Source: a virus
DNA: 40,575 nucleotides
Strand: one strand, 5' to 3'
Virus record (IMG/VR): IMGVR_UViG_3300036852_000358
Span: 1-40,575 of that record
The notes beneath the pieces are model-generated. The model saw only the letters and a list, made by a program, of their open reading frames with translations. It was not told the origin of the DNA and did no database searches. Shown piece after piece: positions 4,596 through 38,456 of the stretch. Position 1 is the first letter of the stretch. Each line of letters opens with the position of its first letter. Both the position numbers and the translations under genes were made by a program.

Positions 4596-5897
4596 TTACG
4601 CGAGCGAGAACACGCCGTGCGCGTGAGGAGGACCGACGCCGTGCTGGCCCATCCAGAACGGACGAGCCTCGAAGTCGTTCGAGGAGGGGGCTGCCACGAG
4701 CATGCCGTTGCCCATGCCGAAGGACACCAGGTTCACGAGCTTGCCCGTCATGCTCGCGAGCTTGAGCACCTTCGGCGAGACGAGCCGGGCCGTGCCCTTT
4801 AGCTGGGTCGGCTCGGCCACCACATCGGTGACGCCGAGCGCGGTGCGGATCTGGATCGCCTCGTAGCCGTCGACGGCGACTTTTTCTACGCCGCGCTCGA
4901 CTCGCGCATTCTGCTGGTCCTCGAACGTGTCCCAGTCCTCGGGGTTCAGGATGAGCTTCTGAGTCTTTCCGATCGCGTTCTTGGTGTCGCCCAGGCGGTT
5001 CATGCACTTGGCGACGAGCTTTTTCATTCGGCGCGCGTAGGTACCAGTGGACTCGCTCGACAAGAGCCGTGCGCCCGAGAGGAACGAGTCCGCGCCGCGG
5101 TTCACGCCATACAGCGTGCTGGTCTGACGCGAGGAGGGCACGTACGCGCTCCAGGGCACGATGATCCCGTCCGGCACGCCCTTCTGTTGATCGCCGAGGC
5201 GGTACACGTAGTAGGTCGTGGCCCCGGTATCGTCCCAAAGCCCCGGGTTGGCCGCGACCGTGGGGGACGAGGTGCTGGCCATCTGCAGGTACCCGTTGTC
5301 CGAGTCCTTGTCGATGACCACGCCTGCGGCGGCGATGGTGGTGTCACTCGTCCCGGTGCCGTCGACGGTCGAGACCTCGACGTGATCGCCGGTCTGAATG
5401 GGGCCCAACGCCTCGGGCGTCGTGGAGAAATTCAGCGAGAACACCGGGCGTGCGCCGGACGCTGCCGAGTGGAACGTCGCCGTGCCGAAGCTGCCGCCCA
5501 AGGTGCCGTTCAGCTGGTAGGCGAGGTCTTGGGCGAAACCGGCGATGCCGGACTCCATGTTGGTGTCGAGCAGGTCCGCGCCGTACTCGGGGTCCGCCTC
5601 GGCCTTGACCAGCTCTTCGAGCGTGAACTTGATCGAGCCTTCCATGCGACCGTACGGGACGGTGAAGCGGAAGTATTCGCTGTTGCGCTTGATGTTGCTG
5701 ATCTGCTGGGCTTGCGCCAGGGTCCGGGCAAAGCCGCGCGGGCCGCGCAAGATGAAGCGCATCGTCATGCTCTCGGAGCCGCGGCTCTTCTCCACGCCGT
5801 ACATGGCGAGGAGAGGCTGGGCCCGAAGCGCGATGTCGTTGGCGTCGTCGGGGTCTAGTTCCCAGCGACTCAGGTAGTTGTTGACGAATTCACCCAC
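4596..5897 (-). CDS. Major capsid protein
   Basis: 433 residues from GTG 5897 (GTG GGT GAA), with a GGAG about nine bases upstream. The length, an N-terminal helix, a long acidic helical stretch (FTLEELVKAEADPEYGADLL) and alternating beta segments resemble HK97-fold coat proteins. The C-terminal end (NDFEARPFWMGQHGVGPPH) is typical of coat proteins whose mature surface ends in a short arm. It heads a run of structural genes and has a 308-bp hairpin-rich leader upstream. No protease gene is seen nearby, so processing may be absent. The capsid call is by position and character. The nearest family is not named. Confidence 0.75.
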   Translation of the reverse strand: MGEFVNNYLSRWELDPDDANDIALRAQPLLAMYGVEKSRGSESMTMRFILRGPRGFARTLAQAQQISNIKRNSEYFRFTVPYGRMEGSIKFTLEELVKAEADPEYGADLLDTNMESGIAGFAQDLAYQLNGTLGGSFGTATFHSAASGARPVFSLNFSTTPEALGPIQTGDHVEVSTVDGTGTSDTTIAAAGVVIDKDSDNGYLQMASTSSPTVAANPGLWDDTGATTYYVYRLGDQQKGVPDGIIVPWSAYVPSSRQTSTLYGVNRGADSFLSGARLLSSESTGTYARRMKKLVAKCMNRLGDTKNAIGKTQKLILNPEDWDTFEDQQNARVERGVEKVAVDGYEAIQIRTALGVTDVVAEPTQLKGTARLVSPKVLKLASMTGKLVNLVSFGMGNGMLVAAPSSNDFEARPFWMGQHGVGPPHAHGVFSLA

Positions 5898-14338: not shown

Positions 14339-14958
14339 GCCCCTACTACTCGCACGCGGGGATCGAGATCTTCCACGGGGACGCCCGAGCGCTGGCCCCG
14401 CTCATGGATGCCGCGGTGCTCAGCCTGGATCCGCCCTACGGCACCAACGAGCACGGCGGCTATGGTCGGCGGCAACTCGGGCTCGAGACCATCGAGAACG
14501 ACGCGGATACTTCCCTCCGTGACGACCTGCTCGCATGGTGGGGCGCTCGGTGCGCGGTCGTCTTTGGCTCCCCGCGTCGACCCGAGCCACCGGGCGAATG
14601 GATGTTCCGCCTCGTGTGGGACAAGCGCTCGCCCGGCATGGGCTCTCCGTGGCGCTGGCAACACGAGATGATCTACCTCCGCGGCGAGTGGCACAACCAG
14701 CCCGGCATCGCCTCGGTGTTGAGCTTCTCCGTTGGTGGAGCGATGCGCGACCGGTGGCACCCGCATGAGAAGCCGATCCCGCTCATGTGCGCGCTGCTCC
14801 AGGGCACGACGGGCAAGATCCTAGACCCGACCATGGGGAGCGGCTCGACGCTCCGCGCTGCCAAAGAGCTAGGCCGTGAAGCGATCGGCATCGAGATCGA
14901 CGAGAAGCGCTGCGAACAAGCGGCGATCCGGCTCTCACAAGAGGTCCTATTCGCATGA
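14335..14958 (+). CDS. DNA methyltransferase, first copy
   Basis: 207 residues from GTG 14335 (GTGA overlap). Motif IV DPPYG is at residues 32-36. The SAM-binding motif (ILDPTMGSGSTLRAAKELGR) follows at about residues 160-180, the beta-class order of amino-methyltransferases. DPPY is typical of N6-adenine or N4-cytosine methylation. Its N-terminus MSPYY and C-terminus QEVLFA recur in the methyltransferase at 17505, as do the start and stop DNA. No endonuclease partner is seen. It may protect phage DNA. Confidence 0.8.
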   Translation: MSPYYSHAGIEIFHGDARALAPLMDAAVLSLDPPYGTNEHGGYGRRQLGLETIENDADTSLRDDLLAWWGARCAVVFGSPRRPEPPGEWMFRLVWDKRSPGMGSPWRWQHEMIYLRGEWHNQPGIASVLSFSVGGAMRDRWHPHEKPIPLMCALLQGTTGKILDPTMGSGSTLRAAKELGREAIGIEIDEKRCEQAAIRLSQEVLFA

Positions 14959-17335: not shown

Positions 17336-17508
17336 TGACCGCTCACCCGCGCACCGCGCATCCACCCGGGAGCAAGACCCAGTGCAAGCGCTGCCCGCGC
17401 GTGTTCAGGCGGAGGCGCGGCCGACGCTTCTGCATGGTCTGCTCCGGCTATCGGATCCCGAAGCGTCTACGCGACGAGCTCGCGCGCAATCCGAGGGAGA
17501 CGCCGTGA
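17335..17508 (+). CDS. Small zinc-ribbon protein
   Basis: 57 residues from ATG 17335, overlapping the previous stop (TGATG). CKRC and CMVC (about 17 residues apart) form a zinc ribbon within a very basic stretch (VFRRRRGRRF). It is coupled to the second methyltransferase by a GTGA overlap. DNA or RNA binding is likely. Function is unknown. Confidence 0.6.
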   Translation: MTAHPRTAHPPGSKTQCKRCPRVFRRRRGRRFCMVCSGYRIPKRLRDELARNPRETP

Positions 17509-18191
17509 GCCCCTACTACGACCACGGCGGGATCACCCTCTATCTCGGCGACTGCAGAGAGATCCTTCCCACCTTGGGCAAGTTCGATCTGCTGCTCACA
17601 GACCCGCCATACGACTTCGGGCACTACGCAACGGACACCAAGCCCTCGATCGCTCTCATCATGGAGAGTGCCCCAACGGCTGCACTGTGGGGATATCCCG
17701 AGGTTCTCTGCGGGTGGTGCATCGAGATCGGGCGCGCGCCCGACGAGTGGATCACCTGGTGGCCCACGAACGCTGCCGCCAAGACGGGAGGGAGACACGC
17801 CAACGTGCCGCGCCAGGTGGAGACGGTGGCCATCTTCGGGAACCGGCTGTTTGCCGATCTGGTGCGCGAGCCACGCGCCCGCGGAGTGATTCTCGGCAAA
17901 GAACTCTCGGAAACTGTGCGCGCCTCGGATGTGTGGCGCGACGCCAGCCCTGGAATCGGGTTCAACGCGCGCGAGCGCCTCCACCCAAACGAGAAGCCCG
18001 TTTCCGTCATGGGGAAGTTACTCGATCTATGCGCTGCACCCGGCGCCACCGTCGTCGACCCCTACATGGGCTCGGGCCCCGTCGCCAAGGCATGCAAGGA
18101 TCGCGGGCTGCGATACGTCGGGATCGAGCTGGTCGAGAAGTATTGCGAGATCGCCGCCAAGCGCCTGGCCCAAGAGGTCCTCTTCGCATGA
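17505..18191 (+). CDS. DNA methyltransferase, second copy
   Basis: 228 residues from GTG 17505 (GTGA overlap). Motif IV DPPY is at residues 33-36, and the SAM motif (VVDPYMGSGPVAKACKDRG) near residues 185-205. MSPYY at the start and QEVLFA at the end match the first methyltransferase, as does the start/stop DNA, so the two are paralogs. The middle differs, so the recognition sequence may differ. No cognate endonuclease is seen. Confidence 0.8.
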   Translation: MSPYYDHGGITLYLGDCREILPTLGKFDLLLTDPPYDFGHYATDTKPSIALIMESAPTAALWGYPEVLCGWCIEIGRAPDEWITWWPTNAAAKTGGRHANVPRQVETVAIFGNRLFADLVREPRARGVILGKELSETVRASDVWRDASPGIGFNARERLHPNEKPVSVMGKLLDLCAAPGATVVDPYMGSGPVAKACKDRGLRYVGIELVEKYCEIAAKRLAQEVLFA

Positions 18192-23748: not shown

Positions 23749-25155
23749 TCACCCCTGCTGCTTCATCCAGCGGACCCGCTCCTCCCAGCGTTTTTTGCTC
23801 TCGCGCTCCTCCCACTCCATGGTCCCTGGCATCGGTTCGCTCTCGGATTCGCTGATGTGGGCCATGAGATACTCGAGCGCGTACAGGCCACCATCGAGGC
23901 AGTGGTCCTGGTACCTCTCGTGGTGGTCGTCCTTATCGTCGTTCCAGGGCGTGACCCGGGCCTCGTCCTGCCAGGGCTTGGTTTCCTCGTAGGTGACGAT
24001 CGTTTGGTTCGAGAGCATCGACCCGAACATCCAGATACGGTCTTTTTTGAAGCCCGCTTTTTTAGCGGCCACGATCGGCAGCTGGTAGACGCGTTGCAGG
24101 TCCGCGATCGACTGGGCTCCTCCGCCGGACGAGTCGCCCACGATGACGTTCGGATGGAAGCGGGTCCCGAGCATCTTGGTATGTGCCGAGACCTGCTCGG
24201 TCGTCATGCCCGCTTGCTTGTAGGCGTGGAGCATATGGATCTTGTGCATCGTGAAGATGCGGCTCTTGTCCTCGCTCGCGGCCCGTTCGGTAGTGAGCCG
24301 GAACACGACCCAGGCGTTCGGCTGGTGCTGGCCGAAGTCGACACCCATCACCGTCCAGCCGTGCTCGGGGGCGGCCCGCTGGGGGAACACGACGCCGTTC
24401 CAGCCGCCGTAGGGTAAGGCCTCGGTGTCGGGGCAGAACTCGCCCAGGTACTCGCGCCGGAACTCCGGCGTGCGCTCGGTCCAGCCGAGCTTTCGGTTAT
24501 CGTAGAGGACCTGCCGCAGGTAGGCCACGGCATCGGGAATGTGCGGGTTGTCCCGGACGGTCGCGAAATGTACGTTGGCCCCCGTCTCCCCAAGGCAGAC
24601 CCCATGCCAGTAGGTTTTGACGTTCTTGGACGGCGTGCCGATCATCGAGAGGCCCCGTCCACCGCGTCTCCACCAACGCATGAGAGCGGGCCGCGCGCAG
24701 GCGTCCGCGGTGTAGCTCAAGAGCTCGTCCCGGTAGGTGCCGCACTCCTCGATGCTGATCTCCGGCGGGGTGAAGCCACGGATCTTCTCCGCCTCGGCCA
24801 GGGTGGAGAGTCCGAGGAGCTGGACGATGCCGCCGTTCGGCATCACCAACTGGCTATCTGCCAGGCGCAGTTCGATCTTGGCGTCGTGCTCGCGGTTCAG
24901 CCGTTCGCAGATCGGCCATAGGAGATCGCGCGCCTTGTGAATGGTCGGGGCGAGGGCTAACGACGTGGTCCCGCTGATCGCGTTGCGCTTTTTGCTGACC
25001 CCGTTCCAGAAGGATTTGCCCCATTGACGGCTCCCGCACACCGCCCGGAGATGGTGCCGATCGTTCTCGATCTGCTGCTGCTTCGGGGTGAGCAGCGACA
25101 GGAGACTCGACCCCTGCCTAGCCTTCTGACAGTGGACGCGGCTCCTGCTGAGCAT
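23749..25155 (-). CDS. terL: Terminase large subunit
   Basis: 468 residues from ATG 25155, behind AGAGGAG. Walker A GSRQWGKS is at residues 41-48. The Walker B region reads ISIEECGTY, with Glu136/Glu137 where an Asp-Glu pair is more usual. The C-terminal RNase H-like nuclease has MGVDFGQ, VGDSSGGG and DHCLDGGLYA acidic blocks. It packages DNA into the prohead. It is the last gene of the late run, convergent with the early operon. The small subunit is not recognised. Confidence 0.85.
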   Translation of the reverse strand: MLSRSRVHCQKARQGSSLLSLLTPKQQQIENDRHHLRAVCGSRQWGKSFWNGVSKKRNAISGTTSLALAPTIHKARDLLWPICERLNREHDAKIELRLADSQLVMPNGGIVQLLGLSTLAEAEKIRGFTPPEISIEECGTYRDELLSYTADACARPALMRWWRRGGRGLSMIGTPSKNVKTYWHGVCLGETGANVHFATVRDNPHIPDAVAYLRQVLYDNRKLGWTERTPEFRREYLGEFCPDTEALPYGGWNGVVFPQRAAPEHGWTVMGVDFGQHQPNAWVVFRLTTERAASEDKSRIFTMHKIHMLHAYKQAGMTTEQVSAHTKMLGTRFHPNVIVGDSSGGGAQSIADLQRVYQLPIVAAKKAGFKKDRIWMFGSMLSNQTIVTYEETKPWQDEARVTPWNDDKDDHHERYQDHCLDGGLYALEYLMAHISESESEPMPGTMEWEERESKKRWEERVRWMKQQG

Positions 25156-25654
25156 CGCTCCTCTGGTAGCCCTTCTCCCTCAGAATGGCGTCGAGCTCGG
25201 CGGACGGATTGTCGAGCTCGTCGGCGTGGAACCAACGGGTCCTTCTCAGAGCGTCTCGGAGTTCCTGGTTGGGGTCCAAGTAGGTCTGATCGAGCGCGAG
25301 TTCCTCCACCCGTGGGGAGGCGAGAAGCGTCGTGATCGCCAGGGGATTGCCGCATGGCCAGCGGGTGTCGAACCATTTCCAGAGGGGCCCGACGTTGGCC
25401 TTGGCGCCCGGCAGACAGAGTGCCTCGATGACCCCGAAGATCTTCCGGGCGTACGCGGCGTCTCGCCTGCAGTATTCCTGGGTGAAGTCCCGCAGGTTGG
25501 GTGTGTCGTCTCCCGCTGCAGCGCCCCTCTCGAGCCAGTCCCGGAGCTCGCCGATCGTGTGCCCACACGCGTACGCCACCAGCTCGTGATACGGGTACTG
25601 ATCGCAGGCCAGGCAGAGCGCCGTGCTCGTCTCGACGTCGATGTCCTCAACCAT
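25118..25654 (-). CDS. Protein of the packaging module (unknown)
   Basis: 178 residues from ATG 25654; it overlaps the GroES-like gene by 8 bp and TerL by 38 bp. It is helical with several cysteines (ALCLACDQYPYHELVAYACGH) and aromatic patches (LWKWFDTRW). Its place just before TerL makes a small-terminase or packaging-accessory role conceivable, but no HTH is visible. Function is unknown. Confidence 0.5.
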   Translation of the reverse strand: MVEDIDVETSTALCLACDQYPYHELVAYACGHTIGELRDWLERGAAAGDDTPNLRDFTQEYCRRDAAYARKIFGVIEALCLPGAKANVGPLWKWFDTRWPCGNPLAITTLLASPRVEELALDQTYLDPNQELRDALRRTRWFHADELDNPSAELDAILREKGYQRSDAQQEPRPLSEG

Positions 25655-26492
25655 CGAAGCCCGTGATGAAATCCTGCCAGGGGCTCACCGTGAAGACTTG
25701 CCCGTGCAGGCGAAAGCGCGCCCGGTCGTTGGCCGAGGAAAAGCCGATCATCGTGCCCTCGGTGATCTGGTTCTCGACGAACACCCACTTTTTCCGCGGG
25801 CCAAACAGGCGCTCATCCCACAACGCCTTCACCCACCGGCCATTGCCAGCGGAGACCACGCGCTCGACCATCATGCGATCGGCCGAACCCACCGCGCTGC
25901 CCGACTTGGCGTTGCGACTCGTGGCCTGCTTGCAGGTCGGGCACCGGTGGGGTCCGGGTAACTCATGCACGCGGGTGACGATGCCCCAGGCGAGCTCCTC
26001 ATCGGTGAGCGGGGTCTGCCGGTTCAGGGCCCTCTGAGCGCCTTCGGGGTCCACCCGGGTAAGGATCTGGTCCGAGAGCGGTTCGGGCATGCCGCCCGCG
26101 CCGTTCGGGTGCCGGAGGCTGATGCCGTGCTCGTGGACCAGGTAGTAGGTGACGCTCTTGTCGGGATCGTAGAGTTCCCGGGAGATCCGGTTGCGCTTGT
26201 AGCTCACGAGATCGCCCACCTCGAGGCCGGGACGGTCCTGGGCGAGCTCCGGACGTCCGGGGCCAATCGCGACCACCTCCCCGAAGGTGAGGCTGTCCGG
26301 GTGGCTCTTGTAGTCCGCGCTGAAGGCGGCCAGGTGATGTAGCGGGATGAACCCCACCGTATTGGCCTGGGCCACGATCTTGGCCTGCTCGGGGGAAAGT
26401 TCCCCGTGGGTGAGCTTGAGCGTCGTGGTCTCTTCGGCGAGCTCGGGGCGGGGCAGGATCCAGACGTAGTCCCGAAGCGGCAGGAGCCTCAC
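25647..26492 (-). CDS. GroES/Cpn10-like co-chaperonin with extra domain
   Basis: 281 residues from ATG 26492, with a GTGA-type overlap with the scaffold stop. Residues 1-130 follow the Cpn10 layout: RLLPLRDYVWIL at the start, GEVVAIGPGRPE, GLEVGDLVSYKRN, then YYLVHEHGISLR. The segment between (residues about 25-60) is longer than a normal mobile loop. A CPTC knuckle near residue 190 and a C-terminal extension follow. Phage co-chaperonins such as T4 gp31 help fold the capsid with host GroEL. That role is inferred from motif order and from its position beside scaffold. Confidence 0.6.
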   Translation of the reverse strand: MRLLPLRDYVWILPRPELAEETTTLKLTHGELSPEQAKIVAQANTVGFIPLHHLAAFSADYKSHPDSLTFGEVVAIGPGRPELAQDRPGLEVGDLVSYKRNRISRELYDPDKSVTYYLVHEHGISLRHPNGAGGMPEPLSDQILTRVDPEGAQRALNRQTPLTDEELAWGIVTRVHELPGPHRCPTCKQATSRNAKSGSAVGSADRMMVERVVSAGNGRWVKALWDERLFGPRKKWVFVENQITEGTMIGFSSANDRARFRLHGQVFTVSPWQDFITGFDG

Positions 26493-27544
26493 GCGTGCCG
26501 CTCCCGGTCGCGCCGGGCAGCCCCGGTTTGCCGCAGAGCGCGCTCCAGGTGATGCTTGCGCTTCTCCTCTCGGGACATCTCCCGCAGGGGCTTGGTGGAG
26601 GACTCGCGCCGATCGGGGGTCTCGCGGGTGGCCGGGCGCGCACGCTTGCCCGTGAGCCGCTGGGCTCGCTCGAGTTCGGTCTGGTAGACTTGATCGGCGG
26701 CCTTCTTTTTGCTGAGCGAGTACTCTTCCAGATCTTCGTCCCAGCTATCGTGCCACTTGTCGAACGCCTTCTGGGTGAGCTCCGGGTCACCGGCGACGAG
26801 GAGCGGGTGAGCCTTCAGCGCCTTGTCGAACGTCGCCCGCAGTTGCCGGCTCTCGGCGGTCTTCTGCTCGGTCTCCTTCTCTTTGGTGGTCTGCTCGACG
26901 GTCTTCGAGAGCTTCTCCTCGAGTTCCTTCACCTTGTATTGGAGGTCCGCCGTAGCGAGTCCGTCCTTGCTCGCGTTCCAGAAGTTCCGGGCGATGTTCT
27001 CGAACTTGTCCCCGAACAGGTGCTCCACTGCGGCCTTGCTGGTGCGATAGTCTTTCTTTGCGTAGTCGGCGCGCGCCTGGGCCATCGGCGCGTATTCCTT
27101 GGTCACCGCGTCGTTGATGCGCTGGTCCTGAGCGCGTTGCTTCTCGAGATCGCGCTCGCGCTTGTCGAGCGCCTTGACCTCCTCGGTGAGCTTCTCTTTG
27201 GCCTTGGCCAGGTGCTTGTGGCTCTTGAGCTTGTCGAGCTTGCTCAGGCGCTCGCTCTTCTGCTCGTCGGTCTCTTCGGCCTCGTCCTTGTCGCCGTCCG
27301 CTTCTGCCGTCTCCGTGGGCTCGTCTTCGCTCTCGTCGGCGGTCTCCGCGGGCGCCTTGCCAGCGGCCTTCAGCGCCCGCTCGAAATGGGCTTTTCGCCG
27401 TTCCTCTCGGGAGGCCTCCGCCGCCTTCGGATCAACCGACTGCCGCGAGCGGGGCTCCGGTGCCGGGTCCGAGAAGTCCGGGCGGACTTCCGCCTCCGGG
27501 GGGTCCGAGGCTGGGGCCTCCGGGGATAGTTGTGGCTCCGCCAT
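26489..27544 (-). CDS. Scaffolding protein
   Basis: 351 residues from ATG 27544, behind the strong AGGAGGAG site, so the start is well supported despite its 113-bp overlap with the portal gene. It is highly charged: an acidic Glu/Asp/Ala N-half, a long central coiled coil (KVKELEEKLSKTVEQTTKEK) and a basic C-terminus, as expected for an internal scaffold. The motif SREERRKAHFERALKAAGKA near residue 45 recurs as SREEKRKHHLERALRQTGAA near the end, an internal repeat. Confidence 0.7.
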   Translation of the reverse strand: MAEPQLSPEAPASDPPEAEVRPDFSDPAPEPRSRQSVDPKAAEASREERRKAHFERALKAAGKAPAETADESEDEPTETAEADGDKDEAEETDEQKSERLSKLDKLKSHKHLAKAKEKLTEEVKALDKRERDLEKQRAQDQRINDAVTKEYAPMAQARADYAKKDYRTSKAAVEHLFGDKFENIARNFWNASKDGLATADLQYKVKELEEKLSKTVEQTTKEKETEQKTAESRQLRATFDKALKAHPLLVAGDPELTQKAFDKWHDSWDEDLEEYSLSKKKAADQVYQTELERAQRLTGKRARPATRETPDRRESSTKPLREMSREEKRKHHLERALRQTGAARRDRERHA

Positions 27545-29432
27545 TCGCTCCTCCTACTGCTGCTGGGGGCGCTCCGGCGCCCGGGTAAATTTGACTGACA
27601 TCGGCCGTGGCCGAGATCGAGGTATTGGCCTGCATCTTCTCCTGGTCGATGAGCACGCCGAGTTCTTCCAAGAACAGCTCGAAATACTCCAGGCGATCGG
27701 GAGGGCAGCCCATGCTCTCGGCGGCGAGCAACTCCTCCTGGACGCGCTCGGCGGCCGCGGGGAGATCGGTCCACTTGCGAGGGGACTGGTAGAAGTTCTC
27801 TTCCAGGCGCTCGCTGTCTTTGGCGTGGAGCCACTTTTCGATCTGCTTCTGGAGCCACTGCTTCTGCCGGCTCGTCCGGTCTGCTTCCCCGTCGGCGTCG
27901 AGGTGCTGGCGGAACTGCATGTACTCGCCGAGTGAGGCCTTCTCCTGCTGGACCAGTTGCTCGCCGAACTCGAGCAGGCTACTGACCGAGTTCTTCTCTT
28001 CGGAGACGGCCGCAACCCGGAGCATGAACTTGTTGTCGTCGAGATCGAGGTCCGAGACGTCGATCACCTCGCTGAGCGAGCCCTTCTCCCAGCGCCGCAT
28101 GATGTCCTGGCCGTCCTTGACCATGTCCTTGAGCGCCCGGACCTTGCGCCGTCCGGTCTGCACCGTGCGCGCGTGGATGATGCGGCGAGACTCGGGCGCG
28201 AAGGCCTCGGTGAAGTAACTCGCGTTGTACTTTTCGTGCTTTCCAGATGTGGCCTGCCGCCCCCCTCCACCCTGGTGCCGAGCGTCCACCATCGCGTCCT
28301 CATCGGCCCATTCCCCGTACAGGCGGATCAAGTCCAAGGCCGCGCTGTCTTTGGTGTCGAGATCGGTGATGCGCAGATCACTCTGCACCATGTCGCTCTC
28401 GATGACCATCGTTCCGCGGGTCTTGCCGCCCATCTTGTCGAGCGTCTCTTTGCTGCCTTGCACGATCCGCTGGGGGGAATTGATCTGCTTCTGGTCCTGG
28501 TCGTGAGCCATCTCGTTCTGCCGGCGGAGGACCTCATGCACGTAGGCCGTGAGCGGAGTGCCCCAGTCGCCGACCATCTGGCGCTCGAAGTGGTGGATGG
28601 TGCAGGGCAGTTCGTCGTACTCGTAGACCTGGTCCTTGCCGAGCCGGCTACCGTCCTTGAGCACCCAGAGTTGCCGGCCGTCTTCGCCTCGCACGCTGCA
28701 GCGGTAGCCAAAGTGCACCTGCACCACCCAGCGCTGTTCCATGCGAGGCTTGCGGCTCTCGGCCATGCCCCGACCGACGCCGACGCTCCACATCGTCTCG
28801 GCGTTCTTCTCGATCAGCTCCCGCTGGTTGGGAAACCGTAGACAGAGCTCCTCGGGCTCGTAGTAGTCGGTCCCGATGCAGCCGAGATAGGCTCCCTGAG
28901 GCCCAGAGGTCTCGAGTGCCATGGTCAACGTGTCGTTGATGCGGGACTCCGTCTTGCCGTACCCGGGCAGTTCGAAGACCGCAATCGAGCCCGTAGCGGC
29001 CATCTCCATCAACCCCGCGTGCCGCCAGAGATCGTGCTGGTTGTCGAACCGCCCCTGGGGCTGCTCGTACTCGGCATCGATGGCCCGGTTCAACAGGATG
29101 GCTTGCGTCTGGGTGTGCCAGGCCCCGCCCACACTCATGAATTGCGGCAAAGGATCGTCGTTGCCCCAGAGCTGCGCGTGCGCGCCCTTCACGATCGAGC
29201 GGGCCTTGCGCCGAAGCAAGGGCATGTTCACGCCGGCAAAGACGTTGCTGGTCTGCAAGGCATAGCCCACGGGCATGAAGCTCGTGAGCAAGGACCCTTC
29301 GAACAGGCTCGCATACTGGATGGCCAGGGCCGTTCGTTGGCGGTTGTCGGCGATGGCCGCCTGACACGCCTTCAGCAGGTGGACCGGTGCCTCGTCTTTG
29401 CTCTGCTTGTGCCAAGGGCGTTGATAGGCCAT
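27432..29432 (-). CDS. Portal protein
   Basis: 666 residues from ATG 29432. It has a helical wing-like N-half (LLRRKARSIVKGAHAQLW), a central region with many aromatic and Arg residues (EQRWVVQVHFGYRCSV), a long helical stem-like part (LRRQNEMAHDQDQKQIN) and a Gly/Pro-rich C-tail. Size, order and neighbours (internal virion protein, scaffold) fit a portal/connector of a short-tailed phage. Its last 113 bp encode the disordered tail and also the first 38 codons of the scaffold in another frame. Confidence 0.7.
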   Translation of the reverse strand: MAYQRPWHKQSKDEAPVHLLKACQAAIADNRQRTALAIQYASLFEGSLLTSFMPVGYALQTSNVFAGVNMPLLRRKARSIVKGAHAQLWGNDDPLPQFMSVGGAWHTQTQAILLNRAIDAEYEQPQGRFDNQHDLWRHAGLMEMAATGSIAVFELPGYGKTESRINDTLTMALETSGPQGAYLGCIGTDYYEPEELCLRFPNQRELIEKNAETMWSVGVGRGMAESRKPRMEQRWVVQVHFGYRCSVRGEDGRQLWVLKDGSRLGKDQVYEYDELPCTIHHFERQMVGDWGTPLTAYVHEVLRRQNEMAHDQDQKQINSPQRIVQGSKETLDKMGGKTRGTMVIESDMVQSDLRITDLDTKDSAALDLIRLYGEWADEDAMVDARHQGGGGRQATSGKHEKYNASYFTEAFAPESRRIIHARTVQTGRRKVRALKDMVKDGQDIMRRWEKGSLSEVIDVSDLDLDDNKFMLRVAAVSEEKNSVSSLLEFGEQLVQQEKASLGEYMQFRQHLDADGEADRTSRQKQWLQKQIEKWLHAKDSERLEENFYQSPRKWTDLPAAAERVQEELLAAESMGCPPDRLEYFELFLEELGVLIDQEKMQANTSISATADVSQIYPGAGAPPAAVGGANGGATTIPGGPSLGPPGGGSPPGLLGPGTGAPLAAVG

Positions 29433-29438
29433 GAGTCC

Positions 29439-32366
29439 TCAGGCTGCGTTGGTGACGCTGTTCTTGATTGCACTGATCGACCGAGACCCGGTCGCTAGCT
29501 GCCCCGGGCTCGGTCCCGACGAGCCGCCCAACTGTGCAGAGCCGCCCTTGCTCGAGCGCTCTGCCTTGGCGTCTTTGATCGCGCGCGCGAGCGGCCAAGA
29601 GAAGGCCCTGCCCGCGGTGCCGTCGCCGCCAAAGAGAATGTCCATCCGGAGCTTGCGCTGCGTGCTCATGCTCCCGGGGTTGTTTGCCACTTGTCGGACG
29701 AGTTCGAGCCGGAGCTTCTGGTAGATGTCCGGGTGCACGGCTTCCAAGGTGCGGAGCTGGGTGGGGGACGCCTTGCCATCGCGCACGTCTTCCAGCACCG
29801 AGGCGGGGTTGAGGGCAGAGTTGTATTTGAGCGCGAAGTCCCGGGCCGTTGCCCGAGAGAGCGGGATGCCGTTGGGGCGCACCATCGACGCGCTCATTTG
29901 AGAGGGCAGGTTTTCGTGCAGGTACTGCGCGGCCGCCTGAAGCCGTGCCGAGACCTGCCCGTAGACCTCCGGGGCCACCTTACTCATGGGCCCGAGGTGT
30001 TGAGCCACCGCGCGGTGCAATAGGAGCGGGTTCTTCATCACGTTGTCGAGCGTCTTGCGTCGTGCCTCGAACGCCGTCTGAACCGTCGGGTAGTCGCCTT
30101 GAAAGCGGGCCATGGCCGTTTGAGTGAGCGGCTTGGCAACGGCGCCGACCGCGCCGGCACTGGACTCGACGGCCCGGAGCGCCTTGGACGCGTTGCCGAG
30201 CACGGCGCCCCTGGCAGCAGACCCTATCGTGGCCTCCCCCGTGCGCCCGAGGGTGTCGAGGAGCCTCGACATGCGCAGCAGCTTGGTCCCGGTGGCGACG
30301 ACGGCGCCCAGGCCAAAGGAGTGGGCTGCCGCGCCCGCTGCAGCCCCGAGGAGGTTGCTCAGCAGCTCGCTCTTGCTCGCGTCGGCGGCGTCTCGGGCGG
30401 CCTGGTTGGCGCGTTCCTCACGGAGGGCCCCGGCTTGTTCCTTGTCGAACTTCGCCGATTCACGAGCCACGCCTTCGCGCTCGGCCACTCGCGTCTTTGC
30501 CCCCCGGACGTCGTCCGAGAGCCTCAGCTGTTCCCGCACCGAGTCGACCGCGCTTTGCATGCGCTCGATCTGTTCTTTGGGCGCGGTGCCGTACTCGCGG
30601 TGGGTTTGGATCAGCTGTTCAGCGCCCTGGAGCTGCTTTTCGATCTGCTCCGGCATCACCCCGCGCCCGATGTCATCCGCGGACAGGTGCTTGCGGATCT
30701 TGGACGGATCGAACCGCACCGAGCCGTCCTGCATTTCGCGCCCGAATTGGCCCTCCACCTCCCGGGCTCCGGCTCTCCAGTTGTCCTCTACCGCACGCGA
30801 GACGCTCTTTTGGTAGTCGCCGGCCTGGCCCCAGAGGTCCGTCCGCTCGCGGTCGAGGCGGAGCGAGGAGCGGTGCTCGGCGACCCGCGCCTGGAGCTCC
30901 TCGGCACCTTCCACGCCTTGCCGGGCGAGCTTGCGGAGGGTGTCCTCGTGGCGACCCAGGTCGCGTTCGAGTCTGCCGGCAGCTTCGTGCCAGTCCATGG
31001 CCTCGGTGGCCTCGTCGAGCTCCTTCGAGCCCTGGGTGAGGGTCTTGCGGAGTTTGCCGATGGGCCCTTTCAGCTCGGGGGAGGCCGAGAAGTTGCCGCC
31101 CACTTCAGGTGCCGCACCCTTGAGCGGGATCTCCCCTTCGAATGTGACCTTGCCCGTCTTGCCGTCGACGTACTGGCCGTAGACGGTGTCGCGCCCGAGT
31201 TCCTGGGCAGCTTGCAGGCGGTGCCGGCCGTCGCGCAACACGAGCTCCCCGTCGCCGTCGTCGACGATGGTGATGCCCTTCTTGCCGTCGTTGGACGTGA
31301 CCCGGCCCGTCTTGCTGAAGGTGGGGTCTTCCTTCAGCCGGCGCACGCGTTCGAGATCGCTCGCGTCCTCGATGGGCAGGGCTTTGAGGTCCTCGAGTGT
31401 CCTGCCTTCGAGCGTGAGCGGGGCAGCGGGCGCGGCCTTGCCCCGGGGCGCAATCTCGTTGCGGAGATCGAGCGCGGCCTGGCTCTGAGAGGCGGCCCAG
31501 TCCCTCTGCTCGGCATTGGTCTTGGCCATCAGGCTCTTGACCTTGCCGCGCTTGACGCCTTCGCCACTGGTCTCGGCCACGTCGCTCGCGAGCTGGTCGA
31601 GGGCCTTGCTCGTCCGATCGCTCGCTTGGTCGATGATCTGCTGATGGGCGTTGGCGAGGAACACGTCCCGGTCGGGCCCGACGGCAATGCCGTCCGCTAC
31701 GTCTGCAGAGGCCTCGAGAGCCCGGCGCTCGGCGCCTGCGAGGACTCCTTCACCGGTCTCTGCCGCGGCGCTGGCAAGGCGGTTGCGCAGCCCCGAGGCA
31801 CCCGCGCGGATGAGCCCGGGGATTGCCCTGCCGACGAGCTCCCCGCCCACCCCATACATGAGGATGTTCCCGACGCTCACGGGGCGGTTCTCTTGCCGGG
31901 CTTGCTCGACTTCTGCCGAGCCGCCACCGGTGAGGCCCTCGGCCGCGGCCACGCCTCCGCGCGCCAGAAGCCCTGCACCTTCCGCGCCGATGCCGGCCGC
32001 GCCCAGGACTCCGCCCGTGGCGAGGGCAGGGGCGGCCGCGCCCACGGCTTGGGCGAGGAAGTTCGTGACCGGCGACTCTTGCTGGAGCTGCGTGGATCTG
32101 CCCGCGATGTCCTCGGGGGCACCGAAGCCAGGCACCGCGCCGAAGGTCGCCGTCCGAACCGCCGTCTCTGCCGCGCCGAGCGCTTGCTGACCCGTGCTGC
32201 CGTACTGCGCGTATTGGGCCCGCTCTTCCAGGCGCTTCTGCACCTGGTCATCACCGGCGACGCTCCAGCCCTGATCTCGCGAGACCGTCGGGACGTCCTC
32301 GGGGGCCACCTGGTAGAGGTGACCTTCCTTGGACTGCATGACGACTTTGCCGTCGACTTCAGCCAC
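29439..32366 (-). CDS. Large internal virion (ejection) protein with ParB-like insert
   Basis: 975 residues from GTG 32366. After about 75 residues comes a long Ala/Gly-rich region (LAQAVGAAAPALATGGVLGA), typical of membrane-interacting ejection proteins. Residues about 310-410 hold LVLRDGRHRLQAAQELGRD, the DGRHRL pattern of ParB/sulfiredoxin-like domains. Coiled coils follow (VREQLRLSDDVRGAKTRVAE), then a conserved-looking C-terminus. It probably enters the cell with the DNA. The ParB-like domain could bind or cut nucleic acid. That is inference. Confidence 0.65.
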   Translation of the reverse strand: MAEVDGKVVMQSKEGHLYQVAPEDVPTVSRDQGWSVAGDDQVQKRLEERAQYAQYGSTGQQALGAAETAVRTATFGAVPGFGAPEDIAGRSTQLQQESPVTNFLAQAVGAAAPALATGGVLGAAGIGAEGAGLLARGGVAAAEGLTGGGSAEVEQARQENRPVSVGNILMYGVGGELVGRAIPGLIRAGASGLRNRLASAAAETGEGVLAGAERRALEASADVADGIAVGPDRDVFLANAHQQIIDQASDRTSKALDQLASDVAETSGEGVKRGKVKSLMAKTNAEQRDWAASQSQAALDLRNEIAPRGKAAPAAPLTLEGRTLEDLKALPIEDASDLERVRRLKEDPTFSKTGRVTSNDGKKGITIVDDGDGELVLRDGRHRLQAAQELGRDTVYGQYVDGKTGKVTFEGEIPLKGAAPEVGGNFSASPELKGPIGKLRKTLTQGSKELDEATEAMDWHEAAGRLERDLGRHEDTLRKLARQGVEGAEELQARVAEHRSSLRLDRERTDLWGQAGDYQKSVSRAVEDNWRAGAREVEGQFGREMQDGSVRFDPSKIRKHLSADDIGRGVMPEQIEKQLQGAEQLIQTHREYGTAPKEQIERMQSAVDSVREQLRLSDDVRGAKTRVAEREGVARESAKFDKEQAGALREERANQAARDAADASKSELLSNLLGAAAGAAAHSFGLGAVVATGTKLLRMSRLLDTLGRTGEATIGSAARGAVLGNASKALRAVESSAGAVGAVAKPLTQTAMARFQGDYPTVQTAFEARRKTLDNVMKNPLLLHRAVAQHLGPMSKVAPEVYGQVSARLQAAAQYLHENLPSQMSASMVRPNGIPLSRATARDFALKYNSALNPASVLEDVRDGKASPTQLRTLEAVHPDIYQKLRLELVRQVANNPGSMSTQRKLRMDILFGGDGTAGRAFSWPLARAIKDAKAERSSKGGSAQLGGSSGPSPGQLATGSRSISAIKNSVTNAA

Positions 32367-32381
32367 TGGACACCTCGGCCA

Positions 32382-34337
32382 TCAGAAGGGCGAGAAGCGT
32401 GCCGCGGCAGGCAAGCGCTCTCTCTCCTGTTGTTGCTTGGCGATCTCGGGTTGGGCGAGCAGTTCTTGGCGCGCGGCCTTGCGCTGCTCGATCTCGCGAA
32501 GTTGTTGCTGGTCCGCTTCGGGGATCGGAGCCTCGGGCGCGGGTGCCGCCGCCGGTCCGTTCTGCTTTTCGAAGGGCGCCGTGGGCGGGTTCGGCACTCC
32601 GCCATAGCTCGCCGAGTCGTCGAGCAGGATGCCGAGCATGTCTTGGCCCGCGCCGGGGAATTGCTGGGAGAGCGCCGTCCGCAGACCGTTGTTGTTGACC
32701 TCCCGGAGTCGGTCGAGCGCGCCGATGAACGTATCGGTGGTCGAGCCCATCTCACGGATCGCGCTCTCGCGGTCGCTCTCGGTGATGACCCCGCCGTAAC
32801 TCTTGGCGCGTTGGGTCACGTAGGAGTTCATGAGCGCGCCCACCTGGTCCGCGGTCATGCCCGGTTGGTAGCCGAGGCGGGCGAGTGTGGGAATGAGCGC
32901 CTGGGGGATGTTGAGCACGGCTTTGCCCGGCAAATTGCCGCGCGCCGCGGCGACGGATTGCAGGAAAGCGATATCGGCCTGGATCTGCTTGGTGGCAGTC
33001 GCGGCCTGGGCAATCGTCGGCGAGTTCTCCCCGGATTGCACCTTGCCGTTCAGGCCCTTGGTGAATTGCTCGGGGGTGTACCCGAGAGCCCGGATGCGCG
33101 CCTCGATGGGGTTGCGCGCGCCGCCGGCAACAGGCTTCGGTGGCTCGAGCGTGATGCTTTCGCTGCTCTTGCCCATCACCACGGCTTGCGCCTTGGTCCA
33201 GTCCTCGAGGGCACTGGCGCGCATGCCGGTCGCCGTCGCGGTGAGCTCGCGCTGCGCCTCTACCGTGCGGGCAAACTTCGCTTTGGCCTCGGCCATGTTG
33301 GCGAGCTCGTCTTTGATGCGCGAGCCACCAGCCAAGAGCGCCGCGTTCTTGTCGCCGAGCTGCTCTTCGAGCGACGAGATGAGGTTGCTCTTGTTGTAGC
33401 GCTGGGTGCTCTGCCAGTCGGTCACGATCTGCTGAAGCATCGGCAATGTGCTGCTCTTGTAGCGGCCTCCGCTGAAGCCTTCCGCGAAGCCTCCCGCGAT
33501 GCTGCCCAGGATCGATGTGGCCACGAACCAGTCCGGGAAATCGGGATGGTCGGCAACCGGGGCCTGCTTGACCTGAGCGAGCTTGGCTGCGGCGTCGTCC
33601 CGGGCTTTGGTGAGCGCCCCCATCTGCCCGAGGGCTCGTTGCTGGGCACGGTAGGCGTCGAAATAGTCTTGGTTGGCGAGCCCGGCCTGGGTCTGGTTGT
33701 TCAGCGCCTTGGCCTCGGTGCCTTGATCGATCGCGTCACCCTTGAGCTTGAGCGCGAGATCACTGCCTCCGCGGATGTTGGCCGCGCTCTCGGCGTCCGG
33801 GCCCTCGCTCTTGACCTCGGCCTTGCCCGCGATGAGCTGGGGCGCGTGCTGCTGGACGGCGGCGAGGGCCGCACCGAGCGGGGGAGCAGCTCCAGGGGCA
33901 GCGGTGGCTCCCACCTTCGGCAGGCTATTCGGATCCACCCCGTGATCGGCCAAGGCCTGGGCTGCCGGGCTCTGACCCGTTGGGGGCAGCCCGGGGGCGC
34001 CCTGGAGCGCTCGCTGTTCCGCAGGCGAGGCCTGGAGCGGCGCCTTCTCCGCGTCGGTGAGCGGGGCGCCTGAGGGCAACGGCGGTGCCGCTGGAACATC
34101 CGGGCTCGGGGTAGACGGCGGCAGCGGCGGGGAAGCGGCTCCGGTCAGGGCGGGTTGGGGGACGGCGACGGGAGCGGCCTTCGGCTGGGCGTTGTACCGG
34201 GCGCCCCATTGCCGGGCTTCCGCCTCGATGGAGCCATCGGGATCGGGCACGCTCGTCCGGGTGCCGTCGTCGTGCACCACGTCGCCCCAGGGTTGACCTG
34301 GCTCCCAACGCTCGAAGCCGATGGGAACGGCGGTCAC
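32382..34337 (-). CDS. Internal virion protein (Pro/Ala-rich)
   Basis: 651 residues from GTG 34337 (GTGA overlap). The first 170 residues are Pro/Ala/Ser-rich and disordered, with a WEPGQPWGDVVHDDGTRT start. A Gly/Ala hydrophobic segment (VATSILGSIAGGFAEGFSGG) and long helices follow, ending in a glutamine-rich charged tail (LREIEQRKAARQELLAQPEI). Composition and position match short-tailed phage ejection proteins. No enzyme motif is clear. Confidence 0.6.
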   Translation of the reverse strand: MTAVPIGFERWEPGQPWGDVVHDDGTRTSVPDPDGSIEAEARQWGARYNAQPKAAPVAVPQPALTGAASPPLPPSTPSPDVPAAPPLPSGAPLTDAEKAPLQASPAEQRALQGAPGLPPTGQSPAAQALADHGVDPNSLPKVGATAAPGAAPPLGAALAAVQQHAPQLIAGKAEVKSEGPDAESAANIRGGSDLALKLKGDAIDQGTEAKALNNQTQAGLANQDYFDAYRAQQRALGQMGALTKARDDAAAKLAQVKQAPVADHPDFPDWFVATSILGSIAGGFAEGFSGGRYKSSTLPMLQQIVTDWQSTQRYNKSNLISSLEEQLGDKNAALLAGGSRIKDELANMAEAKAKFARTVEAQRELTATATGMRASALEDWTKAQAVVMGKSSESITLEPPKPVAGGARNPIEARIRALGYTPEQFTKGLNGKVQSGENSPTIAQAATATKQIQADIAFLQSVAAARGNLPGKAVLNIPQALIPTLARLGYQPGMTADQVGALMNSYVTQRAKSYGGVITESDRESAIREMGSTTDTFIGALDRLREVNNNGLRTALSQQFPGAGQDMLGILLDDSASYGGVPNPPTAPFEKQNGPAAAPAPEAPIPEADQQQLREIEQRKAARQELLAQPEIAKQQQERERLPAAARFSPF

Positions 34338-35425
34338 GCGAGTGGCTTCCAGCCGAGGCTACCGGCGGCACCCAAGGCCTTCTCACCCGCACCGAGGAAG
34401 CCCATGACGTAGTCCATCACGCCTTTCTTGTTGGCCTCGGCCGCAGCCTTGATTTGGCCCGCGACCTGCTGGTCGATGTGATGGCTCTGGGCAATCTGAT
34501 CGAAGATGTCCATCTGCGTTTTGATGTCGAGAGAGGCGTAGTTGAACCCGAGCTGGTTGATGTCGTTGATCATCCCGCCGAGCAACTGTTGTCCCTGAAG
34601 GTCGGCGTTGATCTGCATGCCGGTGTCGGCGATGACCCGATCGATGGCTTGCAATCCGATCTGCGCGGTGTCGGTAGCGAGGCCCGCCTCTTGCCCGAAG
34701 GCCCCCGTCGCGGTCTGACCGATGGTGTTGGCGATACCTCCCGAGGTCTGCGCCTGCTGAATACGGGCCTGGAACATCTGCAGCTCTTCGTTGCGCGCCT
34801 GCTCCGCCGCTTGCCCGGCAATGGCAGGGGTCTGGTCGACGACCATGCCCCGGGCCGCGGCGACCGCTCCCGCTCCGCCCCGAGCGTTGGCTGCCAGGGT
34901 ATTGCCCATGGCCAGACCTCGCTCCTGGTAGCGCTGTTGCAAGGCCTGCTGCTCGACGGGATCGATCTTCAGGTTCATCGACTGCTCGAGCACCCGGCGC
35001 TGATCGGCTAGGGCTTGGTCTCGGGCGGCGCGAGCCTGGTCTGTTTGCGAGGTGTCGACCGTCGGAAGGGTCTGGCCCTGGACTTGCCCTGGCGTCTGGT
35101 TGGCGCGCGCCTTGTCGTACGCTCCGGTAGGGTCGAGCCGCGGGTCTAAAGCGGGCGCGTTGTTCGCGTAGTTCGTCCCGGCTGCCGCGAGCGATTGTCC
35201 CGCTGCCCACTGGTCGTACGCGCTCTGCTGCCCCGAGGGGATGACCCACGATTGCGTGCCCCGGTTCCACGCCCACCCGGGCCAACCGTCAGGCTTTGGC
35301 GTATCGGCCATGGCTTGGTCGTTGGCCGCGTTTGCGGTGGCGGCTTGCTGGGCGTCGTTGTACGGGTTGCTCGTCGCCTGACCCGTCGCCGGGTTGATTT
35401 CGTTTCCTGCTCTGTCAACGGCCAT
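34334..35425 (-). CDS. Internal virion protein (Ala/Gln-rich)
   Basis: 363 residues from ATG 35425, overlapping the upstream stop (TGATG); the longer open frame above it is not used. The start (MAVDRAGNEINPATGQATSN) is polar, then Ala/Gln-rich helices (VEQQALQQRYQERGLAMGNT) and a Gly-rich C-terminus (MGFLGAGEKALGAAGSLGW). One of three consecutive ejection-type proteins. Function inferred from composition and order. Confidence 0.6.
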   Translation of the reverse strand: MAVDRAGNEINPATGQATSNPYNDAQQAATANAANDQAMADTPKPDGWPGWAWNRGTQSWVIPSGQQSAYDQWAAGQSLAAAGTNYANNAPALDPRLDPTGAYDKARANQTPGQVQGQTLPTVDTSQTDQARAARDQALADQRRVLEQSMNLKIDPVEQQALQQRYQERGLAMGNTLAANARGGAGAVAAARGMVVDQTPAIAGQAAEQARNEELQMFQARIQQAQTSGGIANTIGQTATGAFGQEAGLATDTAQIGLQAIDRVIADTGMQINADLQGQQLLGGMINDINQLGFNYASLDIKTQMDIFDQIAQSHHIDQQVAGQIKAAAEANKKGVMDYVMGFLGAGEKALGAAGSLGWKPLA

Positions 35426-38406
35426 CAGTGCGTATCCCTTGCTGGCAAGCGCGCCATGCCGGGCGCCGTCGTGGTCTCTAAGGTGATCTCGTTGATGCGA
35501 ATGCCCTCGGTGCCGGACCCGCCGGTGACGTTGAACCGCAAGCCAAAGCGCGAGCACTCCCGGAGCGGCGGGGCCTTTTCGAGATTGACGGCCGCATTGG
35601 CCACGTAGTTGTTCGCCGTGGTGAGCGTGAAGGTCTCGATCGTCGTGTAGTTCAGGCCCGAATCGAAGGTGATATCGAGCGTGGCTGTGCAGTCGGCGAT
35701 CTTGGTGCCGACGACGCCGACTTTGACGATCTCGCCCCAACTCATGCCCGTGCCGAAATCGAAGTCGAACGTCTCGAAGCTCTGGTTCGGCATCGCCCCC
35801 GTCCCGGGGGTGGCGTGCTGCTGGAAGACCGCTCCCGCGCTGTCCACGTAGCAGAGCCGCCCCTGGTACTCGGCCAGGGCCTTGGCGTAGACGTCGTCGA
35901 TGAACCACGCCTTGCGCCGGAGGTCATAGACCAGGACCTCGCCTGCGTTCGCTGCCGCGTTCTCCACCGCGAAGGCCACGGCGTTCTGCTTGCGGAGGTA
36001 ACAGCTCGCCAAGACCACGGGGTAGGTCACGAGCTCGTCCCGGATCGCTTGCCCCACGGTCCAGTCGACTTCCCCGCGCTCGCCGAGAAAGCACAGTTGC
36101 TCGTCGTCTCGTTGGAAAAAGATCCCAGCATCGGTCTCACACAGGCTCTTCCAGCCGTCGACGCCGTTGATGCCACCTTCGCGCGAGAGAAAGCCCGAGA
36201 AGGTGAATTCCCCCTGGCCCGAATGGTCAGGGCCTGTCCCGGTCCAGAGCGAGATGGTCCGGCGGGTGAAGGCGACGAGCTGGCCCCCGATCGAGGCCAC
36301 GGCCAGGATCGCCTCATCGGTCGAGCCCTGGTACTGCGGCAGATCCGCATCGGAGAAGTGGGTGGCTTCCGCCGGGAACTTCAGCTTGCTCTGCAGCCAC
36401 TGGTTCGTGCGCGGGAGTCCGCCGATGGCTAGGCGCTCGTTCGTCGCCCAGAGGTAGGAGGCGGGAGGCGGGGCCTGGTGCGGGATCGGGGTCTGGCCCT
36501 GGGTGTAGATCGTCCCTTGGGTCTCGCCGAGCGTGCGCAGAGCCGCGTCGGAAGTGGTGAGCGTAAACGAGATGGCCGCGCCCCAGTTGCTCGAGCTCGA
36601 CGGGCAAGGGATGTGCGTTTCGCGGTACAGGTTCTCGCCTGCGGTCTTGTCCGCGAGAGCCGCCGTGCGACAGATCACGATCCGGTAGGTCGAGCCGTCC
36701 CAGAAGCCAGAATTGCGAAAGCTATGCAGGCCCCCGATGGTCCCGGTGATGGTGTCGTCCGCGGCACCGGTGGTGATCGAGTAGACGATCGACGGCGGGC
36801 CCCGGTGCACGTTGCCGCGCGCATCGACCATCTCGGGGAAGACCTGAATGAAGTAAGCGGCCGAGCTCGTGATCGCCCCGGGCGCCGTGTTACTCGAGGC
36901 GAGGGAGTAGACGATCGGCTTTTCCCCCCAGCTGATCTCGAACGGGAACCGCCCGTCGAAGATCAGAGGCAATGAGCCGGCGATGTGCAACAGGCCTCCC
37001 TGTACGGCGGCTTGCCGGCGCTCGGCCACGCCGTAACTCCACTCGGCGACGGCCGCGGTGCACTCGAGGTCGTTGTTCTGCCGCAGGCTGGTCGAGTAGA
37101 AATACCCCGAGACGCTATCGCGGGTGAGGCTGCCGATTCTGCCCGGGAATTCGAACGCGGTATCGAAGTCCCGGAACCAGACGGGGTAGCTCTGGACGTC
37201 TTGCACGCCCATGCCACTCACGCCGAAGGCAAAGCTTTGGGTTCCTTGCGAAAACCCGGCAAAAACGAGGTTGATCGGCGCGATACTCGTGCAGAGCATC
37301 TCGGTCGCCAGTTGCAGATCGCTCCAAGTGGCGGTGTCGACTTGGGTCCCGACGAACACGGCCTTGCGCGGGGTAGTGCTGGTGATGTTGCCGGCCACGG
37401 TCACGCCTCCACCGCTGTCGACGAACACCGTGATGGCCCCCGTCGTGGCGGTTGCGCTCAGCGTGGTGGGCCCGGCGATATCGGTCCCGGCGGTGAGAGA
37501 GATCGTCTTGTACTTGAGCAGCGAGTCGGCGTTGTCGAGGTAGCCGATGAGGATCACGTTGGCCGTGCTGTCCGCGGCCACGGTCAGGTAATTGGGCACG
37601 GTCGCGTTGATCGTGCGGGTCATCTGCTGGACGTTGCTATCGTTGAAGTGCTTGACGAGGATATCGCCCGCCAAGCAGTACACGACCACGTAGCCACCCG
37701 TCGCGCCCGCGACCGCGCACGCGGCGAACACGGTCTTATCGGTGGTGAGCGAGAGCAGCGCGGTCGAAAAGGCCTGGTCCGTCGAGGCCGTAAACGAGCA
37801 GGCCTGAATCAACAGACCCGTCCCCGCGTCGAGCCCGAAGACGTAGAACTTGTGCCCCACCGTGACCAGCGCCACCGCTGCGCCGGTCAACGGGAGGTGC
37901 TCGAACACGAGCGTCGCATCGTCTCGGGTGCGAAAGACGAGCGCGTACACCAGACCCACGGTCGCGCTGGTCACCGAGTAGGCGTGCACGGCGATGCCGT
38001 TGTAGACGGCGACGGTCGAGGTCTTGACGCCGCCGCTCTGGTCGGGAGGCGAGCCGATCTCCCGGAGCCGGGTGCCGCTCGGCAGATGCGTCGAGGTCTC
38101 CTTCCAGCCCTTCACCTCGCCCACGTACTCGAAGAGCGTGATGCGGTTGGCGGTGCCGGCACCACTCAGGTGCCCGAGCGCAAACAGGCGATCGTCATAG
38201 GAGAGCAAGTCATGGGCAACGAGCGTGCTCGAGCCTGCTGCATACACGCCTGTCGCCAACGCCGTGAACCCGGGCCTGACCCCGAGCTCGTTGTCCCGCC
38301 TCAGGCGGAGGTTGACGACCCGCCGCAAGAGTCCTTCTGTAGGCAGAAGCTTTCTCGCGGCCTGCTGGTTCGTCCCGCCGTCGAGGCGAAAGCGCGTGAG
38401 GGCCAT
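35425..38406 (-). CDS. Tail hub/nozzle-like beta-propeller protein
   Basis: 993 residues from ATG 38406, behind AGGGGA; the TTG at 38445 is less likely and would overlap the operator. The start (MALTRFRLDGGTNQQAAR) and VVNLRLRRDNELGVRPGFTA match large phage tail proteins with a beta-propeller, such as T7-type nozzle or stabilisation proteins. The middle contains repeating Thr/Val beta segments (ATVPNYLTVAADSTANVILI). It is in the right place for the tail of a short-tailed phage. The promoter candidate upstream contains the shared palindrome. Confidence 0.6.
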   Translation of the reverse strand: MALTRFRLDGGTNQQAARKLLPTEGLLRRVVNLRLRRDNELGVRPGFTALATGVYAAGSSTLVAHDLLSYDDRLFALGHLSGAGTANRITLFEYVGEVKGWKETSTHLPSGTRLREIGSPPDQSGGVKTSTVAVYNGIAVHAYSVTSATVGLVYALVFRTRDDATLVFEHLPLTGAAVALVTVGHKFYVFGLDAGTGLLIQACSFTASTDQAFSTALLSLTTDKTVFAACAVAGATGGYVVVYCLAGDILVKHFNDSNVQQMTRTINATVPNYLTVAADSTANVILIGYLDNADSLLKYKTISLTAGTDIAGPTTLSATATTGAITVFVDSGGGVTVAGNITSTTPRKAVFVGTQVDTATWSDLQLATEMLCTSIAPINLVFAGFSQGTQSFAFGVSGMGVQDVQSYPVWFRDFDTAFEFPGRIGSLTRDSVSGYFYSTSLRQNNDLECTAAVAEWSYGVAERRQAAVQGGLLHIAGSLPLIFDGRFPFEISWGEKPIVYSLASSNTAPGAITSSAAYFIQVFPEMVDARGNVHRGPPSIVYSITTGAADDTITGTIGGLHSFRNSGFWDGSTYRIVICRTAALADKTAGENLYRETHIPCPSSSSNWGAAISFTLTTSDAALRTLGETQGTIYTQGQTPIPHQAPPPASYLWATNERLAIGGLPRTNQWLQSKLKFPAEATHFSDADLPQYQGSTDEAILAVASIGGQLVAFTRRTISLWTGTGPDHSGQGEFTFSGFLSREGGINGVDGWKSLCETDAGIFFQRDDEQLCFLGERGEVDWTVGQAIRDELVTYPVVLASCYLRKQNAVAFAVENAAANAGEVLVYDLRRKAWFIDDVYAKALAEYQGRLCYVDSAGAVFQQHATPGTGAMPNQSFETFDFDFGTGMSWGEIVKVGVVGTKIADCTATLDITFDSGLNYTTIETFTLTTANNYVANAAVNLEKAPPLRECSRFGLRFNVTGGSGTEGIRINEITLETTTAPGMARLPARDTH

Positions 38407-38438
38407 TCGGTCCCCTAGCCTATTCTCCCGCGCGCCCC

Positions 38439-38456
38439 GGGTCAAATATGACCCAG
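38439..38456. promoter_or_regulatory. Palindromic operator between divergent tail and moron genes
   Basis: GGGTCA-AATA-TGACCC (38439-38454) with the extended octamer TGACCCAG (38449-38456). The site lies between genes starting at 38406 (minus) and 38512 (plus). In the minus direction TTGACC reads as a -35, with TAGGCT 17 bases later and an AGGGG site before the tail gene. This is the best-formed promoter candidate of the three operator sites. Confidence 0.6.

Follow-up and report, generated by a model that had tools for sequence, protein, structure and literature searches.

A GroES-like protein with a probable second Cpn10 domain, encoded among the head genes of a small uncultivated bacterial virus

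Results

One of the head-building genes of a small, uncultivated bacterial virus encodes a protein, probably of two domains, that resembles GroES, the lid of the protein-folding chamber of bacteria (25647..26492, minus strand, 281 aa). The window (the whole stretch of DNA analysed) comprised 40,575 nucleotides of the virus record. With regard to this gene, We lean towards the view that its product is a phage co-chaperonin in which one Cpn10 domain follows another head to tail, as in plastid Cpn20/Cpn23. The earlier note had placed the ORF exactly, giving no strand, and had described a GroES-like co-chaperonin in the head module resembling T4 gp31. Sequence profiles, best structural matches and synteny supported such a domain in this module. 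The C-terminal part, however, looks like a second Cpn10 domain, which would make the protein Cpn20-like rather than gp31-like.

The GTG-initiated ORF is a real gene. Its assignment drew on five homologues, all from IMG/VR contigs (L001, L002, L008, L018 and L019), with 72, 70, 63, 48 and 38% identity to the window protein, respectively. L008 was reached through the terminase large subunit (TerL), L018 and L019 through TerL alignment. BLAST detected no relative in INPHARED (annotated phages) or PLSDB (plasmids), nor did a pattern search of 84,980 species genomes (bacterial) with the GroES-like protein or with TerL. Purifying selection acts on both halves of the gene. When compared to L001, domain 1 showed dS 1.24 and dN 0.15 (dN/dS about 0.12) and domain 2, the faster-evolving half, dS 0.87 and dN 0.34 (dN/dS about 0.4).

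The neighboring genes lie on the minus strand as well. TerL (23749..25155, 468 aa) was identified by its match to PHROG 2 (E 5.8e-26). The other names are less direct: a 178-aa protein (25118..25654) was called small-terminase-like (TerS-like) from its conservation and position before TerL, a charged, coiled 351-aa protein (26489..27544) scaffold-like from its sequence character and position, and a 666-aa protein (27432..29432) portal-like from size, position and conservation. Neither the TerS-like nor the scaffold-like protein had a family match in Pfam or PHROG, and the portal-like protein had no informative one there. The order portal-like, scaffold-like, GroES-like, TerS-like, TerL was kept in all six records (window and five IMG/VR contigs). 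The site between scaffold and terminase, as originally proposed, thus holds in each of them, with the scaffold-like gene on one side and TerS-like/TerL on the other. Again in 6/6 records, the scaffold-like gene ends 4 nt into the GroES-like gene. The 3' end of the GroES-like gene overlaps the TerS-like start. Since the 4-nt overlap recurs in every relative, translational coupling probably ties production of the GroES-like protein to that of the head proteins.

Four large proteins encoded upstream of the portal-like gene (975, 651, 524 and 1006 aa; 29439-38445, minus strand) are conserved in all or most relatives. They had no family match save a very weak one of a single protein to internal virion proteins (PHROG 511), which makes a podovirus-like particle possible. 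The plus strand encodes an integrase (10587-12377; PHROG 1, E 1e-30), a replication-initiation protein, two DNA methyltransferases (14179-14958 and 17382-18191) and an exonuclease VIII-like gene, a combination that suggests a probably temperate phage.

Domain 1 (residues 1-128; 26109..26492, minus strand) is homologous to Cpn10. The strings on which the original assignment had been built were all found again in Cpn10 order: RLLPLRDYVWIL (residues 2-13), GEVVAIGPGRPE (71-82), GLEVGDLVSYKRN (89-101) and YYLVHEHGI (116-124). The window protein matched PHROG 3188, 'co-chaperonin GroES', with E 2.1e-4. Against Pfam Cpn10 (PF00166) it reached 17.5 bits (E 0.004), under the cut-off of 21.1, which the homologue L002 exceeded with 24.7 bits. 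In hhalign, the six-member profile of residues 1-128 aligned with a 15-member Cpn10 profile across 67 columns at P 6e-10. None of 400 column shuffles reached the real score of 57.1, the best one attaining 19.0. PHROG 931, named head morphogenesis, matched only L002 (E 0.019), and a match of the window protein to Pfam DUF7538 (E 0.12) was set aside as noise.

AlphaFold models, made with 3 and 6 homologues, were poor (mean pLDDT 36 and 38). Foldseek on the model with pLDDT 38 nevertheless returned Cpn10s as top matches (E 0.016). On re-alignment with VIA-align, the top 14 rows all belonged to the Cpn10 family, covered residues 2-134 and had Z scores of 4.7-5.8, the next, unrelated row having 2.9. 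Mycobacterium tuberculosis Cpn10 scored 5.8, Cpn23 5.5 and T4 gp31 5.4, and GroES was also in the top rows. The comparison with GroES and gp31 that had been suggested thus gave the Cpn10s, gp31 included, as best rows for residues 2-134, but on a poor model with domain 2 not folded. In view of this model quality we take the structural agreement of domain 1 as support, short of proof. Residues 135-281 had no structural rows; given the unreliable models, we draw no conclusion about a missing fold.

The mobile loop is changed in two respects. In a joint alignment, the GroES segment ETKSAGGIVLT is matched by ETTTLKLT in the window (residues 21-28; 26409..26432, minus strand) and by ETTSSGLVFT in L018. 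The window has lost the glycines, yet a hydrophobic motif remains at the place where GroES binds GroEL and is nearly canonical in L018. Domain 1 of the window protein no longer has an intact canonical GGIVL, and in domain 2 this sequence is hardly recognisable. In addition, the alignments confirmed the expansion of the mobile-loop region that the earlier note had noticed: about 38 residues (29-66; 26295..26408, minus strand), specific to this family, are inserted between the motif aligned with IVL of GroES and the GEVVAIGPGR strand. Conservation across the family is highest within this insertion, at G-[FY]-x-P-x-HHL.

The remainder of the protein (residues 134-281; 25650..26093, minus strand) is probably a second, degenerate Cpn10 domain. 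The tandem idea was first formed by eye and tested afterwards. Cpn10-like features in Cpn10 order are EPLSDQILTRVDPE, a long loop, ERVVSAGNGRW (ERVVATGPGRW in other members), a long insertion standing where GroES has its roof hairpin, and GTMIGFSSANDRARFRLHGQVFTVSPWQDFITGF; the closing segment after the long insertion reads GEMVMFSSANDRARFRLHGELFTVVPWQDFV. As family motifs, these correspond to a start PLxDxVLTRxDP, a VVAxGPGR turn and a C-terminal G-x-x-FTVxPWQDF. In hhalign, the domain-2 family profile matched Cpn10 with P 5e-5, and with P 1.6e-5 when a second Cpn10 set was used. Its score of 32.2 was reached by none of 399 shuffles (best 26.9, next 18.5), and 18 control slices from the unrelated TerL and portal scored at most 15.3. 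When 1,282 natural and reversed sequences were ranked with a plain Cpn10 HMM, the first five places all went to domain-2 sequences, of which the family has six; the same five were in the top six with an HMM of Cpn10 plus domain 1.

The window's own domain 2 had 2.3 bits with the Cpn10 HMM, no better than noise, and domain 2 alone found no match in Pfam or in PDB sequence searches, so that the tandem case rests on the family. When the whole-family profile was searched against the PDB (177,635 sequences), the best match was Chlamydomonas Cpn23 (E 0.0022) and the second Cpn20, both tandem Cpn10s. The alignment with Cpn23 ran unbroken from the end of domain 1 across the linker and into domain 2, where it took in the first strand and the loop, residues 69-177 facing 45-158 with nearly equal spacing. 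HMMER weakly aligned the domain 2 loop ALGRTLPLT with MGGVFLPET of Cpn23, the loop lengths being different. Taken as a family result, the balance tips modestly towards the tandem reading, and domain 2 is supported as a diverged Cpn10, though more weakly than domain 1.

A CPTC knuckle in a C-terminal extension had also been described. CPTC is indeed present within the domain 2 loop (residues 184-187; 25932..25943, minus strand), but the region is probably a second Cpn10 domain rather than an extension, and the knuckle is absent from three relatives. L001 and L002, the two closest relatives, have CPAC, and L008, L018 and L019 lack it, so that it cannot be essential to the family. With CPxC in 3/6 members and no second cysteine pair, a zinc knuckle was dropped as a defining feature.

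Discussion

Three other explanations were weighed against a tandem co-chaperonin. The protein might consist of a single Cpn10 domain and an unrelated C-terminal domain; it would then be gp31-like, with a second half that has another task, such as keeping a scaffold or capsid client at the mouth of GroEL. Such a domain would fit with the failure of domain 2 alone to be recognised in Pfam or PDB sequence searches, with its faster evolution (dN/dS about 0.4 vs 0.12), with its not being folded by AlphaFold and with the CPxC knuckle of three members. Against it, the comparison of domain 2 with the Cpn10 profile beat all shuffles and unrelated controls, the start motif, the turn and the C-terminal motif occur in Cpn10 order, and the Cpn23 alignment crosses the domain junction. 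We consider an unrelated domain rather unlikely, if worth keeping in mind.

It is improbable, in our opinion, that a protein of Cpn10 fold was reused as a structural or packaging part, in head completion or decoration, and lost GroEL binding. The gene does sit in a head/packaging operon adjoining TerS/TerL, canonical GGIVL is altered, conservation peaks in the inserted G-[FY]-x-P-x-HHL and not in the GroEL-binding tripeptide, and other small phages have GroES-like genes within structural modules, too. The hydrophobic mobile-loop motif is however kept at the right place and is nearly canonical in L018. Moreover, the unrelated Xanthomonas phage PBR31 encodes an ordinary GroES of one domain almost at this location, two genes ahead of TerL, and the position may therefore go with a chaperone function. 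In favour of an accidental similarity to Cpn10, or of the ORF being no gene at all, one could point to the sub-threshold Pfam score of the window protein and to the antisense ORFs that are common in the GC-rich window record. The family evidence refutes this explanation, to which we accord next to no probability: five homologues share frame and position, dS is well above dN, no shuffle of domain 1 reached the real score and L002 passed the Pfam cut-off.

If the protein is a tandem co-chaperonin, how would it work? In T4, gp31 plays such a part for gp23, and by analogy the present protein would most likely cap host GroEL. No Cpn60 gene was found in the records searched, which may be incomplete, so the partner would be the GroEL of the host. 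We infer that the two domains would assemble into a ring-shaped lid, and that the ETTTLKLT motif of domain 1, together with the long insertion, would dock on the apical domains of ATP-bound host GroEL. By displacing host GroES, the phage lid would create a chamber suited to phage head proteins; the virus would probably thereby supply its own lid for the folding of its shell proteins. The major capsid protein would be a reasonable client. The best candidate for it is a protein of 433 aa (46 kDa by length; 4596..5897, minus strand), which had no PDB, Pfam or PHROG match and a homologue of which directly follows TerL in the L019 contig. A counterpart of the candidate is found in L038 (6723-8033). 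TerL and the candidate capsid gene of the window are separated by a module that spans about 15 kb and is encoded mostly on the plus strand.

Phage co-chaperonins illustrate how a virus adapts the folding chamber of its host to viral proteins. Tandem Cpn10s are otherwise known from chloroplasts and related plastids. With a slight inclination only, we propose that the phage encodes a tandem Cpn10 outside plastids, probably of independent origin, coupled to the capsid operon and working with the seven-fold GroEL of its host. Plasmodium Cpn20, which can stand in for GroES in E. coli (PMC3542282), is a precedent for a tandem co-chaperonin on seven-fold GroEL. If our reading is true, the Cpn20 design would have a second, independent instance, and so would the symmetry problem that comes with placing domain pairs on a seven-fold chaperonin. 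The phage system would be small enough for tests with E. coli GroEL and GroES depletion. The coupling of the gene to the head operon would furthermore tie the design to a specific client.

Comparison with known systems

Domain 1 shares with bacterial GroES/Cpn10 (PF00166, PHROG 3188) the PLxDxV start strand, GEVVAxGPGR, VGDxVxYxR and the closing strand. It differs in that the window copy stays under the Pfam cut-off and lacks GGIVL, and in having the loop insertion and a second domain attached. T4 gp31 (1G31) is likewise a phage-encoded Cpn10 relative with a lengthened loop and a presumed role in capsid folding (Z 5.4, residues 6-128). It is, however, a 12-kDa single-domain protein, whose loop of 22 residues instead of 16 goes along with a larger chamber (PMC6318259); in the present protein the insertion is far longer, and a second domain follows.

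The earlier note had pointed to the small genome of the phage. Co-chaperonin genes in small phages, even next to the terminase, are already known. In INPHARED, 90 records match E. coli GroES, a few of them being host DNA; most are from jumbo phages, but small phages are also found. Single-domain GroES proteins are encoded by PBR31 (40.0 kb), Shewanella phage 1/44 (49.6 kb) and phage 2.096.O (44.7 kb), and HTVC023P-type pelagiphages count GroES among their core genes (PMC9599517). In PBR31, 1/44 and 2.096.O, as in the window, the co-chaperonin gene lies in or beside the structural module. The proteins of these three phages have one Cpn10 domain of about 101-107 aa, though, and no BLAST similarity to the present protein. 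In PBR31 (L009, 5995-6318), a 40-kb phage, the order is GroES, one ORF, TerL, portal, scaffold, capsid, so that co-chaperonin genes may have been recruited beside packaging genes more than once. In 1/44 and 2.096.O, GroES belongs to the neck module. In Shewanella-infecting phages (L010, 5992-6297; L011, 5986-6306), the GroES-like gene is flanked by the genes for tail completion and for the major tail protein, and its product lacks the usual GxGR turn (MIANTLSF and VIPNTLSY).

In its proposed build, the phage protein is like plastid Cpn20/Cpn23 (Chlamydomonas structure 7EKQ; Plasmodium and Arabidopsis Cpn20), with two Cpn10-like units joined head to tail by a short linker. The two GroES-like domains of Cpn20 are arranged in this way (PMC5780408), and both keep their mobile and roof loops (PMC3542282). 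The plastid proteins have about 200 aa as opposed to about 281 aa in the phage protein, whose domain 1 carries the 38-aa insertion. Domain 2 of the phage protein is much more diverged, and its loop, which bears the knuckle, is longer still. A phage tandem Cpn10 was not reported in the literature searched, which took in only a minority of subscription journals. Single-domain GroES in small phages being known already, the proposed tandem form is the new part. This family stands out by its probable two domains, by a loop insertion that is both long and conserved, and by a gene that is always coupled to the scaffold-like one.
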